A DNA stretch of 64,000 nt from Streptomyces sp. NBC_00224 (GTDB lineage: Bacteria; Actinomycetota; Actinomycetes; Streptomycetales; Streptomycetaceae): assembly GCF_041435195.1 (NCBI RefSeq), contig NZ_CP108106.1:6177501-6241500 (forward strand), read 5' to 3'. Under the pieces are notes generated by a model. It ran no database searches. It was not told the origin of the DNA and worked only from the letters and a program-made list of their open reading frames with translations. Below, one piece after another: positions 31,090-44,345 of the stretch. Each line of letters starts with the position of its first letter. The first letter of the stretch is position 1. The position numbers and the translations under genes are program-made.

Positions 31090-33045
31090 ATGGCCTACCG
31101 GCCCTCCCCGCGCACCAAGAAGACGCTCCTCGGCGGCGGCGCGGTCGTGCTGCTCGCCGGGCTCAACGCCCCGGCCGCGCTCTCCTTCGCCGAGGAGCAG
31201 TACCACGCGTACCAGATCCGCCAACCCGACTACATGCGCAAGTACGGCGCCTGGGACACCGTCGACATCCCCGCGAAGTACCGCACCAACGCGATCCACG
31301 CGGCCCTGCTGCACACCGGCAAGGTCCTGATCGTCGCCGGGTCGGGCAACAAGCAGGAGAAGTTCGACGCCGGCTCCTTCGACACCGTGCTGTGGAACCC
31401 GAAGGACAACACCTTCAAGAAGGTCCCCACCCCCGAGGACTTCTTCTGCTCCGGCCACGCCCAGCTCCCCGACGGCCGCCTCCTGGTGGCGGGCGGCACC
31501 GCCCGCTACGAGGTCCTGGACGCCCAGGTGAAGCGGGCCGGCGGCGGGATGCGGGTCAAGAACGAGAACCCGGACAAGCCCGTCACCATCAAGAAGGGCA
31601 CCCGGTTCCGCTCCCCTTCGGGCGTCGAGTACGTCTCCAAGTTCGACGTCACCGTGCCCCGGGCCAAGCGCGAGTTCGTGGTCAGCTACTACGCGACCGG
31701 CCAGATGAAGCCGTGGAAGACCAAGGTCACCGCGGCCGAGGCCCGCGTCTTCGTGGAGGCCGCCGCCGAGGGCCCGAAGTTCGTGGCCACCGACCAGGCC
31801 CAGTACGAGATCGAGGGCCTCAAGGGCGACGACGCCGACAACACGTACGGCCTCGCCGAGAAGATCACCATGGACAAGCAGGACTTCCAGGGCATCCGGG
31901 CGGCCTACGAGTTCGACCCGAAGGCGGAGAAGTACCTACCCGTCGCCCCGATGCAGGAGGCCCGCTGGTACCCGACGCTCACCACCCTCCAGGACGGCAA
32001 GGTCCTCGCCGTCTCCGGGCTCGACGACGTGGGCACGATCCTCACGGGCGAGAACGAGATCTACGACCCCAGGACGAAGAAGTGGGCCAAGGGGCCCTTC
32101 CGGTACTTCCCCACGTACCCCTCGCTCTTCCTCACCAAGAGCGGCAAGCTCTTCTACTCGGGCGCCAACGCGGGCTACGGGCCCGCCGACAAGGGCCGCG
32201 AGCCGGGGCTGTGGGACATCGCCACCAACACCTTCACCAAGATCAACGGCCTGGGCGACGGCGACCAGCTCGAAACGGCCAGCTCGCTGCTGCTCCCGCC
32301 CGCCCAGGAGCAGAGGTTCATGCTGCTGGGCGGCGGCGGGGTCGGCGAGTCCAAGAAGTCCACGCCCCGCACCGCGCTGATCGACCTCAAGCAGGACAGC
32401 CCCGCTTTCAAGACCGGCCCCGTGCTCCCGCAGGGCACCCGCTACCTGAACAGCGTGATCCTGCCCGACGACTCCGTCTTCACCAGCGGCGGCTCCGAGG
32501 ACTACCGGGGCCGCGGCTCCAGCAACATCCTCAAGGCTCAGTTCTACGACCCCGCCGCCAACGCCTTCCGTGAGGCCGCCGACCCCACGGTCGGGCGCAA
32601 CTACCACTCCGAGGCGCTGCTGCTGCCCGACGGCAGGGTCGCCACCTTCGGCTCCGACTCGCTCTTCGGCGACAAGGACAACACCAAGCTCGGCAAGTTC
32701 GAGCAGCGCATGGAGATCTACACCCCGCCCTACCTCTACCGTGACAAGGACAGGCGCCCCGCCCTCGGCGACGGCCCGCAGGCGGTCGGCCAGGACCGCC
32801 GCGCCACCTTCCCCGCCGCCCACCCCGAGCGGATCGCCAGGGCCCGGCTGATGCGGCCGAGCGCGGTCACCCACACCACGGACGTCGAGCAGCGCTCGAT
32901 CGACGTGCGGCTGACCAAGGACCGGAACTCGGTGACGGTCGAGGTGCCGCGCGACAAGGCCCTCGTCCCGCCCGGCTGGTACATGCTCTTCGTCACGGAC
33001 GCCGAGGGCACGCCGTCCGAGGCGAAGTGGCTGTTGATCGACTGA
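31090..33045 (+). CDS. glxA: Mono-copper radical oxidase GlxA, galactose oxidase-like
   Basis: Extracytoplasmic copper oxidase that acts on the glycan made by CslA. 651 aa. A single N-terminal membrane anchor (TLLGGGAVVLLAGLNAPAAL) is followed by a kelch-type propeller and a C-terminal Ig-like domain. Copper/radical residues are all present: Cys in EDFFCSGHAQL (about 120, Tyr-Cys cross-link), Trp-Tyr in EARWYPTLT, Tyr-His in GRNYHSEALLLPDG and His in VTHTTDVEQR. It is the second gene of the cslA operon. Confidence 0.96.
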   Translation: MAYRPSPRTKKTLLGGGAVVLLAGLNAPAALSFAEEQYHAYQIRQPDYMRKYGAWDTVDIPAKYRTNAIHAALLHTGKVLIVAGSGNKQEKFDAGSFDTVLWNPKDNTFKKVPTPEDFFCSGHAQLPDGRLLVAGGTARYEVLDAQVKRAGGGMRVKNENPDKPVTIKKGTRFRSPSGVEYVSKFDVTVPRAKREFVVSYYATGQMKPWKTKVTAAEARVFVEAAAEGPKFVATDQAQYEIEGLKGDDADNTYGLAEKITMDKQDFQGIRAAYEFDPKAEKYLPVAPMQEARWYPTLTTLQDGKVLAVSGLDDVGTILTGENEIYDPRTKKWAKGPFRYFPTYPSLFLTKSGKLFYSGANAGYGPADKGREPGLWDIATNTFTKINGLGDGDQLETASSLLLPPAQEQRFMLLGGGGVGESKKSTPRTALIDLKQDSPAFKTGPVLPQGTRYLNSVILPDDSVFTSGGSEDYRGRGSSNILKAQFYDPAANAFREAADPTVGRNYHSEALLLPDGRVATFGSDSLFGDKDNTKLGKFEQRMEIYTPPYLYRDKDRRPALGDGPQAVGQDRRATFPAAHPERIARARLMRPSAVTHTTDVEQRSIDVRLTKDRNSVTVEVPRDKALVPPGWYMLFVTDAEGTPSEAKWLLID

Positions 33046-34244: not shown

Positions 34245-34754
34245 GTGCCGAAGCCGCTCAGCCTCCCGTTCGACCCCATCGCCCGCGCCGACGAACTCTG
34301 GCAGCAGCGCTGGGGGCCGGTCCCCTCCATGGGGGCGATCACCTCGATCATGCGCGCGCACCAGATCCTGCTCGCCGAGGTCGACGCGCTCGTCAAGCCG
34401 TACGGGCTGACCTTCGCGCGGTACGAGGCGCTGGTGCTGCTCACCTTCTCCAAGGCGGGTGAGCTGCCGATGTCCAAGATCGGCGAGCGACTGATGGTCC
34501 ACCCCACCTCGGTGACGAACACCGTGGACCGCCTGGTGCGGTCCGGGCTCGTCGACAAGCGCCCCAACCCCAACGACGGGCGGGGCACGCTGGCGTCCAT
34601 CACGGACAAGGGCCGCGAGGTCGTCGAGAACGCGACGCGGGATCTGATGGAGATGGATTTCGGGCTGGGTGCGTACGACGCGGAGGAGTGCGGGGAGATC
34701 TTCGCGCTGCTGCGGCCGCTGCGCGTTGCCGCGGGCGATTTCGCGGACGGGTGA
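34245..34754 (+). CDS. MarR-family transcriptional regulator
   Basis: 169 aa from GTG 34245 with AAGG 9 nt upstream. PLSLPFDPIARADELWQQRWGPVPSMGAITSIMRAHQILLAEVDALVKPYGLTFARYEALVLLTFSKAGELPMSKIGERLMVHPTSVTNTVDRLVRSGLVDKRPNPNDGRGTLASITDKG contains a full winged HTH. It stands before a DUF3817 gene and icmA, and could control the acyl-CoA mutase operator at 35.26 kb. That link is inferred from proximity only. Confidence 0.92.
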   Translation: MPKPLSLPFDPIARADELWQQRWGPVPSMGAITSIMRAHQILLAEVDALVKPYGLTFARYEALVLLTFSKAGELPMSKIGERLMVHPTSVTNTVDRLVRSGLVDKRPNPNDGRGTLASITDKGREVVENATRDLMEMDFGLGAYDAEECGEIFALLRPLRVAAGDFADG

Positions 34755-34799
34755 GAGCTCGGTCCTGGCCGTGATTTTGCCGGGTGCGGGTCGTTCTGG

Positions 34800-34825
34800 G
34801 CTGGTCGCGCAGTTCCCCGCGCCCC
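34800..34825 (-). repeat. Intergenic repeat, 26-bp arm only
   Basis: GCTGGTCGCGCAGTTCCCCG plus CGCCCC, identical to the left arm of the inverted repeat at 37.0 kb. Here it lies between two co-directional genes. Confidence 0.8.
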
Positions 34826-34862
34826 TTCAGGGGCCCGGGCAAGATCGCCCGGAACGGGCCGT

Positions 34863-34868
34863 TACGCT
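34863..34868 (+). promoter_or_regulatory. -10 hexamer of a leaderless DUF3817 transcript
   Basis: TACGCT ends 7 nt before the ATG at 34876, with no ribosome binding site between. No good -35 was found, so this is tentative. Confidence 0.35.
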
Positions 34869-34875
34869 CGTGGGC

Positions 34876-35214
34876 ATGAAAAAGAGCGTGCTCACCCGCT
34901 ACCGGATCATGGCTTACGTCACCGGTGTCCTCCTCGTCCTGCTCGCCCTTGGCGTGATCGCCAAGTATCTGCTGGACATGGACGGCGCGGCCGACTTCAC
35001 CAAGATCGTGGGCATCGCGCACGGCTGGCTGTACGTCCTGTACCTCGTCTGCGCCTTCGACCTCGGCTCCAAGGCGAAGTGGCCGGTCGGCAAGCAGCTC
35101 TGGGTCCTGCTCGCGGGCACCATTCCCACCGCCGCGTTCTTCGTCGAGCGCAAGGTCTCCCGCGAGGTCGAGGCCCTGGTCACGGACCCGGAGCCGGCCG
35201 CGGCCCAGGCGTAA
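34876..35214 (+). CDS. DUF3817 membrane protein, copy B
   Basis: 112 aa. Three membrane segments (IMAYVTGVLLVLLALGVIAKYL, IVGIAHGWLYVLYLVCAFDL, LWVLLAGTIPTAAFFVERKV) with the family motif GIAHG...D...KAKWP...FFVERK. Paralogue of the protein at 28.5 kb. Function unknown. The ATG at 34876 is preceded by TACGCT at leaderless distance. It follows the MarR gene on the same strand. Confidence 0.87.
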   Translation: MKKSVLTRYRIMAYVTGVLLVLLALGVIAKYLLDMDGAADFTKIVGIAHGWLYVLYLVCAFDLGSKAKWPVGKQLWVLLAGTIPTAAFFVERKVSREVEALVTDPEPAAAQA

Positions 35215-35250
35215 CCCCACCGCCCGCGGAGAACCGTGGGCGGCTGGCCA

Positions 35251-35287
35251 TCGACATTTACTAGGACGTCCTAGTAAATTCGAAGGT
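35251..35287 (+). promoter_or_regulatory. icmA promoter with 24-bp perfect palindromic operator
   Basis: The sequence runs TCGACA (35251-35256, -35), 18 bp, TAAATT (35275-35280, -10), 7 nt, then ATG. The perfect palindrome at 35256-35279 (arms ATTTACTAGGAC and GTCCTAGTAAAT) fills the whole spacer and the -10. A bound dimeric regulator would exclude RNA polymerase. No ribosome binding site fits the ATG, so the mRNA is probably leaderless. Confidence 0.7.
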
Positions 35288-36988
35288 ATGGACGCTGACG
35301 CCATCGAGGAAGGCCGCCGACGCTGGCAGGCCCGTTACGACAAGGCCCGCAAGCGGGACGCGGACTTCACCACGCTCTCCGGGGACCCGGTCGACCCGGT
35401 CTACGGGCCCCGCCCCGGCGACACCTACGAGGGCTTCGAGCGGATCGGATGGCCCGGCGAGTACCCGTACACCCGCGGTCTCCACGCGACCGGCTACCGG
35501 GGCCGGACCTGGACCATCCGGCAGTTCGCCGGGTTCGGCAACGCCGAGCAGACCAACGAGCGCTACAAGATGATCCTCGCGGCGGGCGGCGGCGGCCTCT
35601 CCGTCGCCTTCGACATGCCGACCCTGATGGGCCGCGACTCCGACGACCCGCGCGCGCTGGGCGAGGTCGGCCACTGCGGTGTCGCCATCGACTCGGCCGC
35701 CGACATGGAGGTCCTGTTCAAGGACATCCCGCTCGGTGACGTCACGACGTCGATGACGATCAGCGGTCCCGCCGTGCCGGTGTTCTGCATGTACCTGGTC
35801 GCCGCCGAGCGGCAGGGCGTCGACCCGGGCATCCTCAACGGCACGCTCCAGACCGACATCTTCAAGGAGTACATCGCGCAGAAGGAGTGGCTCTTCCAGC
35901 CCGAGCCGCACCTGCGCCTCATCGGCGACCTGATGGAGCACTGCGCGGCCGGCATTCCCGCCTACAAGCCGCTGTCCGTCTCCGGGTACCACATCCGCGA
36001 GGCCGGGGCGACGGCCGCGCAGGAGCTGGCGTACACCCTGGCCGACGGCTTCGGATACGTGGAGCTCGGCCTCTCGCGCGGTATGGACGTGGACGTCTTC
36101 GCGCCCGGCCTCTCCTTCTTCTTCGACGCGCACCTCGACTTCTTCGAGGAGATCGCCAAGTTCCGCGCCGCGCGCCGGATCTGGGCCCGCTGGATGAAGG
36201 AGGTGTACGGGGCGAAGTCCGACAAGGCGCAGTGGCTGCGCTTCCACACCCAGACGGCCGGTGTCTCGCTGACCGCCCAGCAGCCGTACAACAACGTGGT
36301 GCGCACGGCCGTGGAGGCGCTCTCCGCGATCCTCGGCGGCACCAACTCGCTGCACACCAACGCCCTGGACGAGACGCTCGCCCTGCCCAGCGAGCAGGCG
36401 GCCGAGATCGCGCTGCGCACCCAGCAGGTGCTGATGGAGGAGACGGGTGTGGCCAATGTGGCCGACCCGCTCGGCGGTGCCTGGTACGTGGAGCAGCTCA
36501 CCGACCGCATCGAGGCCGAGGCCGAGAAGATCTTCGACCAGATCAAGGAGCGCGGGACGCGGGCGCACCCCGACGGCAAGCACCCGATCGGCCCGATCAC
36601 CTCCGGCATCCTGCGCGGCATCGAGGACGGCTGGTTCACCGGCGAGATCGCCGAGTCGGCGTTCGAGTACCAGCGGTCCCTGGAGAAGGGTGACAAGCGG
36701 GTCGTGGGCGTCAATGTGCACCACGGGTCCGTCACCGGTGACCTGGAGATCCTGCGGGTCAGCCATGAGGTGGAGCGGGAGCAGGTGCGGGTTCTGGCGG
36801 ACCGCAAGGGTGCGCGCGACTCGGCGCGCGTGAAGGCCGCTCTGGACGCGATGCTCTCCGCCGCGCGCGACGGTTCGAACATGATCGCGCCGATGCTGGA
36901 CGCGGTGCGGGCCGAGGCGACCCTGGGTGAGATCTGCGGGGTGCTGCGGGACGAGTGGGGCATCTACACGGAGCCGGCGGGGTTCTGA
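35288..36988 (+). CDS. icmA: Isobutyryl-CoA mutase large subunit (IcmA type)
   Basis: Coenzyme B12-dependent rearrangement of isobutyryl-CoA and n-butyryl-CoA. 566 aa, the known IcmA length, with only the TIM-barrel substrate domain and no C-terminal cobalamin-binding domain. Two residues separate IcmA from methylmalonyl-CoA mutase: Phe80 ([14 protein letters not shown]) instead of Tyr, and Gln198 (EYIAQKEW) instead of Arg. Both are at those exact positions here. The small B12-binding subunit IcmB must be encoded outside the window. The adenosyltransferase at 4.8 kb and MeaB at 24.3 kb serve the same enzyme class. Confidence 0.95.
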
Positions 36989-41829: not shown

Positions 41830-42456
41830 TCAGGCCGTCGCCTGCAAGCCCGTGCAGATCAGCAGCGTGAACTCCCGCGCCCACTCCCGATCCACCGGCT
41901 CCGCGCTCACCAGCGCCCGATGCACCACCGCCCCCGCCACCACATCGAAGATGAGGTCGGCATGGCGCGCGGAGGTCGCCGGGTCGTCCTCGTACGGGAG
42001 TTCCCCCCGCACCTGCGCCCGCTCGCGGCCGATCAGTACGAGCCGTTTCTGGCGGTCCACGATCGCCGAGCGGATCCGGCCGCGCAGGGCGTCGTCGCGG
42101 GTGGATTCGGCGACCACGGCCATCAGGGCCGTCTGGGTCTCGGGGCGCTCCAGGATGGACGCGAACTGGAGCACCACGCCCTCCACGTCCGCCGCGAGGC
42201 TGCCGAGGTCGGGGAGTTCGAGCTCGTCGAAGAGGACCGCCACCGCGTCCACGACCAGCTCGTTCTTGCCCGCCCAGCGCCGGTACAACGTCGTCTTGGC
42301 GACGCCCGCGCGGGTCGCCACATCCCCCATCGTCAGTTTCGACCAGCCCAGCTCGACCAGCGCCTGCCGGGTCGCCAGCAGGATCGCCGCGTCCGCCTCG
42401 GGGCTGCGGGGGCGGCCGGGGCGCGCGGTTCTGCCGGGGCTGGATTCGGAACACAT
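41830..42456 (-). CDS. TetR-family transcriptional regulator
   Basis: 208 aa. N-terminal HTH: AILLATRQALVELGWSKLTMGDVATRAGVAKTTLYRRWAGKNELVVDAV, with the typical KTTLYRRW recognition helix end. The C-terminal ligand domain is helical and without obvious motifs. A near-perfect 18-bp palindrome sits 10 bp before the start codon, consistent with autorepression. No obvious target enzyme is adjacent; the next gene upstream is the divergent thioredoxin-domain gene. Confidence 0.93.
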   Translation of the reverse strand: MCSESSPGRTARPGRPRSPEADAAILLATRQALVELGWSKLTMGDVATRAGVAKTTLYRRWAGKNELVVDAVAVLFDELELPDLGSLAADVEGVVLQFASILERPETQTALMAVVAESTRDDALRGRIRSAIVDRQKRLVLIGRERAQVRGELPYEDDPATSARHADLIFDVVAGAVVHRALVSAEPVDREWAREFTLLICTGLQATA

Positions 42457-43984: not shown

Positions 43985-44345
43985 AACCCCCTTGCGCCCC
44001 TCCTCCGAATGGACCACGATCGGCCACGCTCGGTCCAATAACGAACCAGCCCGACAGCCACTCGGGGCTGGGCGTTTCCTGGGTCCCCACCGAGCCGGTC
44101 GACGGCCCTGCCGTCGACTGTGGACAGGGGGGTCTCCGCTCATCGGCGGGGCCTGTCCAGCAGGTTGTGCGTGATACGCGTCAGGCGCGACCAGTGGTTG
44201 TCGCTCGGGGGTGATCGCCGGTGATTCGGACGCGGTACGCGCCTGAGACTCGGGCGCTCCTTCCCGAGGGCGTAGCACTTCTCCCATCCCTGGACAGCCT
44301 GCGAGGGTCCGTCCCGGAGATGTACGTCCGAGAAGGAGGAAAGTC

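Follow-up and report, generated by a model that had tools for sequence, protein, structure and literature searches.

CouR, FerC, HcaR and BadR are MarR dimers that bind short palindromes in catabolic promoters and are released by an acyl-CoA of the pathway. MarR regulators of the type represented by SCO5413 of S. coelicolor are described in print as widespread and of unknown function (title of Holley et al. 2013, as cited in the available text of PMC3737563 and PMC9739823). In literature searched by locus tags, the accessible text gave no operator, regulon or ligand for SCO5413; it appears in one published carbon catabolite table, and the available part of an NdgR ChIP-seq study assigns it as a direct NdgR target, alongside ilvB, ilvD, leuB and leuC (PMC4340878). 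In S. albus, the accessible part of PMC8176718 reports that L-valine raises isobutyryl-CoA mutase mRNA by a log2 value of 5.2 (∼36-fold) and that the top 20 of the valine response includes the genes leading from isobutyryl-CoA to methylmalonate semialdehyde. Searches of accessible text for the palindrome letters described below, for an icmA regulator and for a MarR regulator of valine breakdown returned nothing describing one.

Here we analyze a 64,000-nucleotide stretch of Streptomyces sp. NBC_00224 DNA (the window), in which a palindrome lies in the promoter of the isobutyryl-CoA mutase gene icmA. We consider it likely that this palindrome is the operator of a MarR-family protein of the SCO5413 type encoded at 34245-34754, which would repress icmA together with a valine and short-chain acyl-CoA regulon until released by an acyl-CoA; we are less confident of the identity of the ligand than of this statement overall. 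The initial annotation of this DNA did not name the likely regulator, which is encoded two genes upstream of icmA.

A palindrome in the icmA promoter

The features of the marR-icmA locus are as follows.

34245 to 34754, plus strand: gene for a MarR-family regulator, an apparent SCO5413 ortholog and the proposed binder of the palindrome (Pfam MarR, PDB 4B8X match, co-occurrence and co-location with the site)
34876 to 35214, plus strand: gene for a DUF3817 protein (PF12823), between marR and icmA
35217 to 35247, plus strand: hairpin adjoining the -35 hexamer upstream (-25.3 kcal/mol, z -4.66)
35251 to 35256, plus strand: TCGACA, the icmA -35 hexamer; at each of its positions 77 or all 78 of the 78 icmA loci agree
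35256 to 35279, no strand: 24-bp perfect palindrome, proposed MarR operator of icmA, its 18-bp core kept at icmA
35259 to 35276, no strand: conserved 18-bp core TACTAGGACGTCCTAGTA, relaxed form TASTNGGANNTCCNASTA, from column counts in 78 icmA loci; also at icmF, mmsA, HIBCH and E1-alpha
35275 to 35280, plus strand: -10 hexamer TAAATT, five of its six bases within the palindrome; AATT follows the core in 78/78 loci
35288 to 36988, plus strand: icmA, isobutyryl-CoA mutase large subunit, 566 aa (PF01642, TIGR00641)

The name icmA presumes the likeness of this protein to S. cinnamonensis IcmA and SCO5415. The palindrome has arms ATTTACTAGGAC/GTCCTAGTAAAT with no spacer, is 67% A+T and is the longest perfect palindrome within the window, the runner-up being 18 bp. 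The perfect, AT-rich 24-bp palindrome that the initial annotation placed in the icmA promoter is therefore borne out by the sequence; the span it gave, 35251-35287, corresponds to the promoter-to-ATG interval, within which the palindrome proper occupies 35256-35279. A perfect palindrome of at least 24 bp arose in 1 of 60 first-order Markov simulations of the whole window, as a 26-mer. The existence of the palindrome alone is thus unusual and not decisive; its conservation is. A second copy is absent from the window at up to three mismatches, and its 22-mer has no other copy in the genome in a 3-mismatch search.

The sole sigma-70-like promoter in 34741-35340 is TCGACA-18 nt-TAAATT, with 9/12 matches where shuffled sequences lead us to expect 0.1 such promoters. 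From these coordinates, the palindrome covers the last base of the -35 hexamer, the entire spacer and five of the six -10 bases. It comprises two 8-bp half-sites TACTAGGA flanking a 2-bp centre, an operator-type architecture of the kind that MarR proteins use, set inside the icmA promoter. Seven bases separate the -10 hexamer from the icmA ATG at 35288, and the GAAGG at 35282-35286 stops one base short of this ATG, nearer than a ribosome binding site usually lies; the earlier description of a -10 hexamer 7 nt before the ATG and of a missing ribosome binding site holds on both counts. Immediately upstream, the hairpin at 35217-35247 is possibly the end of the DUF3817 transcript. It is not among the hits of a terminator scan; in 75/80 icmA loci the 45 nt preceding the -35 hexamer fold into a stem with 7 or more pairs and a folding energy no higher than -12 kcal/mol, a count made with no shuffled control.

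We compared icmA loci in the best 80 of at least 587 relatives. The 18-bp core is present in 80/80 of them (50 exact, 29 with one mismatch, 1 with two), and its distance to the aligned ATG is 10 nt in 25 loci or 11 nt in 53, that is, in 78/80; in the two exceptions, L042 and L093, an upstream in-frame ATG stands at 11 and 10 nt. Across the 78 loci every core column is invariant save 3, 5 and 14, of which columns 5 and 14 hold only A or T, and the -35 and -10 hexamers vary little more than the core does. Genus-wide, a copy with at most two mismatches occurs in 291/295 Streptomyces genomes versus 14/295 for a reversed control. In the four genomes that lack one (G120, G156, G201 and G271), icmA is preceded by a version with three mismatches or, in G120, four; the MarR gene is present in three of the four, and the G201 contig stops ∼120 bp upstream of icmA, before the expected place of marR. 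This conservation strongly supports the operator reading of the initial annotation, which had named a palindrome unconserved before icmA as an outcome that would speak against it; the element precedes icmA in every one of the 80 loci. These comparisons indicate that the palindrome is a real, strongly conserved operator-like element that is almost invariant in Streptomyces. The fixed distance from the -10 hexamer to the ATG and the want of a well-placed ribosome binding site lend indirect support to the leaderless icmA mRNA predicted in the initial annotation, which would start at the ATG or within about a base of it.

Elsewhere in the window, a gene of the GlxA galactose oxidase-like type (PF21110) lies at 31090-33045 on the plus strand, a few genes upstream of marR-icmA. 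A TetR-family match, of the type that recurs in the flanks of icmA in other loci (see below), occurs at 41833-42441 on the minus strand, ∼4.8 kb past icmA with other genes between, and a che1 RNA (Rfam RF02935) is found at 44121-44220 on the plus strand with 96.5 bits against a gathering score of 54.1.

The upstream MarR-family protein and its association with the site

The protein encoded at 34245-34754 belongs to the MarR family by its matches to PF01047 (47.2 bits, cut-off 24.6) and PF12802 (46.3 bits, cut-off 27). A phmmer comparison aligns it with PDB 4B8X over residues 26-167 at E 8.4e-83. We take 4B8X to be SCO5413 of S. coelicolor. The molecule name of that entry, 'possible MarR-transcriptional regulator', is also the name of SCO5413 in the available text of PMC4340878. 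The near full-length match, together with the position upstream of icmA, makes the window protein an apparent member of the SCO5413 ortholog group. None of the NCBIfam equivalog models was passed by this protein, the best being NF052438 with 37.6 bits against 220. A match to it (tblastn, 1e-10) is present in 80/80 icmA loci among the best 80 of at least 587. In its own genome no copy of the site precedes the marR gene itself, so autoregulation lends no support here.

We examined whether site and protein occur together in an even draw of 396 genomes from the phylum (384 non-Streptomyces and 12 site-bearing Streptomyces), with a cut-off of E 1e-20 for the MarR protein. The strict site (TACTNGGACGTCCNAGTA, at most one mismatch) was found in 22/396 genomes, against 8 for the reversed control. 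Relatives of the window MarR protein are encoded in 65/396 genomes (67 matches), and all 22 site-bearing genomes are among these 65. Outside Streptomyces, 10/10 strict-site genomes encode the MarR protein versus 53/384 overall (Fisher 1.1e-9, kinship not corrected). Among the 140 non-Streptomyces genomes with an mmsA-family gene (TIGR01722), the site occurs in 8/39 with the MarR protein and in 0/101 without it; the site therefore tracks the regulator and not the pathway gene. The two also lie close together: no more than 10 kb separates the strict site from marR in 8 of the 10 genomes (G355, G378, G430, G452, G331, G646, G543 and G367), where the site lies at icmA, icmF or mmsA. In the other two, G344 and G400, the strict site is not near marR, and another site, scoring 13.25 and 11.5, respectively, on the scale given below, lies ∼0.5 kb from it.

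A protein-first test led to the same association. Stretches around marR, mostly of 15 kb and shorter at contig ends, were taken from 52 of the 53 non-Streptomyces genomes (G578, with the weakest best match, was left out, as were the weaker second copies of G484 and G666) and scored for the dyad, with a maximum of 14.5. A site scoring at least 12.5 of 14.5 is present in 25/52 stretches, versus a mean of 0.33 and a maximum of 7 for 200 permuted palindromes; after removal of the 10 strict-site genomes, it is still present in 16/42, versus a permuted mean of 0.26 and maximum of 6. Only the higher scores discriminate, because at a score of 11.5 the best permuted palindrome (32/52) nearly equals the observed count (33/52). 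No site of at least 12.5 was found in 27/52 stretches, so in many lineages the site has diverged or lies elsewhere. With gene names assigned by eye, the site separates marR from a mutase-type gene, lying in the gap or at the gene end, in L209-L215, L217, L219, L243, L244, L252 and L255, and before a nearby icmF or mmsA in L221, L227, L232, L234, L247, L250, L253 and L258; the sites of L213, L214 and L243 score 11.5-11.75, and that of L221 is also under 12.5. The regulators were also aligned (48 sequences, the window protein and 47 of the 52), and no argument made here rests on that alignment. From this co-occurrence and co-location, the MarR protein at 34245-34754 probably binds the palindrome.

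Genes that share the element

In a genus scan, 23 of the 30 loci fetched carry the element before icmA and 6 before icmF; the icmF product of L128, for example, scores 1932.6 bits against NF045497. The remaining site, in L118, is GC-rich with two mismatches and was set aside as probably due to chance. Within the genome that carries the window, neither an 18-mer scan at two mismatches (12 sites versus 24 for the control) nor a 16-mer scan at three (29 versus 38) gave any excess. The control counts are not split by mismatches, and we accept no more than the four sites that differ from TASTNGGANNTCCNASTA at 0-1 positions: those at icmA, at the leuB-upstream element treated below, at a 3-hydroxyisobutyryl-CoA hydrolase (HIBCH) gene (NF004127, 464 bits, cut-off 274) and at a 2-oxoacid dehydrogenase E1-alpha gene. 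The 2-mismatch sites L152-L159, including L158 before an aminotransferase-like gene, were dropped for want of an excess over the control.

The E1-alpha form of the site, TNCTTGGANNTCCAAGYA, occurs in 104/121 Streptomyces genomes and in none of the controls. Of 24 such loci that carry an identifier, 23 (L280-L302) contain the E1-alpha gene and one (L119) is icmA. TIGR03181 names the protein pyruvate dehydrogenase E1-alpha, so that 'branched-chain' is our own reading of it; in the genome of the window its site is ∼0.1 kb from the predicted start. At mmsA, the Streptomyces sites (L135 and L142, the MmsA of L142 matching TIGR01722) lie ∼0.4 kb ahead of the gene, and those in other families (L162 and L164-L166) lie close before it. 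In L177 and L178 the site precedes an acyl-CoA dehydrogenase gene, with a carboxyltransferase-type gene about one gene away. The element is also found before valine and short-chain acyl-CoA genes outside the class to which Streptomyces belongs, and most site-bearing genes act in valine breakdown and in the utilization of isobutyryl-CoA. The wider regulon foreseen in the initial annotation is hence recovered in part: related acyl-CoA genes with the element were found, an acyl-CoA dehydrogenase gene included, and mutAB and meaA are not among the annotated loci.

Some loci show further arrangements. Two exact 18-mers whose starts are 21 bp apart precede icmF in one Streptomyces genome (L132:8960-8998), and in L283:1501-1541 a second copy, ACTTGGACGTCCAAGT, follows the E1-alpha site after 5 bp; each may be a double operator. 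In Streptomyces G211, ilvE, which encodes a branched-chain aminotransferase (NF009897, 536.9 bits), is preceded at 65 bp by an 18-mer with two mismatches, TACTAGGACGTCCGAGCA (L136:8407-8424), and the same 18-mer letters occur in G131; ilvE is a possible further target.

The fourth own-genome site, TAGTAGGAAGTCCGAGTA, lies upstream of leuB (18-mer at G000:C1:6362005). It is contained in a conserved element, GTCTCAGATAGTAGGAAGTCCGAGTAATTGTGGAGACAGA (L149:1493-1532, and also L303-L326), that includes a dyad resembling the MarR site. The 18-mer pattern of this element is found in 85/121 Streptomyces genomes and in 0 controls, with GTCTC/GAGAC flanks. It stands at least ∼400 bp from the leuB start, with a leuB match in 9 of 24 fetched loci of up to 3 kb each, and L149, L303 and L134 gave no Rfam match for it. 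The dyad is imperfect and conservation extends past it (GTCTCAGA...GTGGAGACAGA); we leave leuB out of the regulon and the element unexplained.

Proposed mechanism, rival readings and known systems

In the mechanism that we propose, a MarR dimer would sit on the two half-sites, over the icmA spacer and -10 hexamer, and keep RNA polymerase off icmA. Its release would come from a valine breakdown product, for which isobutyryl-CoA or a similar short-chain acyl-CoA is the likeliest candidate. The same protein would control icmA, icmF, the mmsA operon, the 3-hydroxyisobutyryl-CoA hydrolase gene and the E1-alpha dehydrogenase operon. Repression is suggested by the position of the palindrome and by the valine response, and the repressor of icmA postulated in the initial annotation agrees with this position and with the published induction. 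That this regulator should be acyl-CoA-responsive, as had also been predicted, is plausible by analogy, the ligand being proposed from the pathway and from MarR precedents that respond to CoA thioesters.

It is improbable, in our judgment, that another regulator binds the palindrome, be it the TetR protein beside icmA, AccR, PccD or BkdR, and that the MarR protein only travels with the valine genes. TetR proteins often govern actinomycete acyl-CoA metabolism, according to the available text of PMC10933834, and that of PMC8176718 gives BkdR a key part in regulating the branched-chain dehydrogenase complex; a TetR-family gene also occurs within the 2.5-kb flanks of icmA in 59/80 loci (the best 80 of at least 587). 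The published motifs of candidate binders, however, differ from the palindrome: GTTAA-N6-TTAAC for AccR, T/ATGACGG/CTGT/CTGT/A for PccD and GAGAACSWWCGTTCTC for SAV7471 (as given in the accessible part of the review PMC10933834), and [GT]T[CT]CAC[CA][CTA][TC][GC][TC]GGAC for NdgR (from the available text on that regulator). In this comparison, made by eye and covering AccR, PccD, SAV7471 and NdgR, each published consensus is absent from the palindrome, and these four were weakened or rejected as binders; the accessible text gave no motif for BkdR, which stays a candidate. The TetR protein beside icmA is weakened as a candidate by its distribution: outside Streptomyces this TetR gene is present in 1/54 stretches and marR in 52/54, a comparison in which 52 of the stretches were chosen for marR and so lean toward it. 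In the stretches of the 10 strict-site genomes, this TetR gene occurs only in that of G378.

Some MarR proteins activate, and the window protein might bind the site mainly as an activator; at the mmsA sites of L135 and L142 and at the own-genome E1-alpha site, the distances given above leave promoter overlap not evident. The palindrome nevertheless covers the icmA spacer and -10 hexamer, a position that blocks polymerase, and valine induction fits relief of repression, and we hold activation to be very unlikely. Least credible of all is that selection on the promoter or on the leaderless start itself, with no dedicated regulator, accounts for the conservation. The -35 and -10 bases are indeed conserved like the palindrome, and the spacing to the ATG is constant; yet the dyad is maintained in distant families and at genes whose surroundings differ, a promoter spacer needs no dyad, and co-occurrence with the MarR protein would lack an explanation.

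Binding and repression by the SCO5413-type MarR protein thus remain our preferred reading, which, if true, makes this protein a likely controller of valine breakdown. The role of a structurally solved but unexplained regulator becomes directly testable, and each step of the test needs a single protein and a single 40-bp DNA fragment. A broader proposal, to which we give an even chance, is that the SCO5413-type protein is a conserved master repressor of valine and isobutyryl-CoA breakdown in more than one class of the phylum and a sensor of branched short-chain acyl-CoA; it would then set the balance of butyryl-CoA and isobutyryl-CoA for polyketide synthesis, with NdgR, through its binding upstream of the regulator gene, coupling branched-chain amino acid synthesis to degradation.

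These proposals can be set beside the known systems. NdgR, of the IclR family, is a branched-chain amino acid regulator with in vivo binding upstream of SCO5413 and leuB; it differs in its GTCCAC..GGAC-kind motif and in that the branched-chain genes in its published list are biosynthetic (PMC4340878, available text). Upstream of the window marR gene, NdgR-like motifs are found only as 3-mismatch matches. AccR and PccD, TetR proteins of actinomycetes, likewise control genes of short-chain acyl-CoA and branched-chain degradation, and they differ from the window MarR protein in protein family and in operator sequence (accessible parts of PMC8176718 and PMC10933834). CouR, FerC, HcaR and BadR act on aromatic acyl-CoA genes, whereas the genes here are those of valine and short-chain acyl-CoA metabolism and the ligand is proposed by analogy. 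The closest likeness is to SCO5413 itself (PDB 4B8X), which the window MarR protein matches over residues 26-167 with E 8.4e-83.
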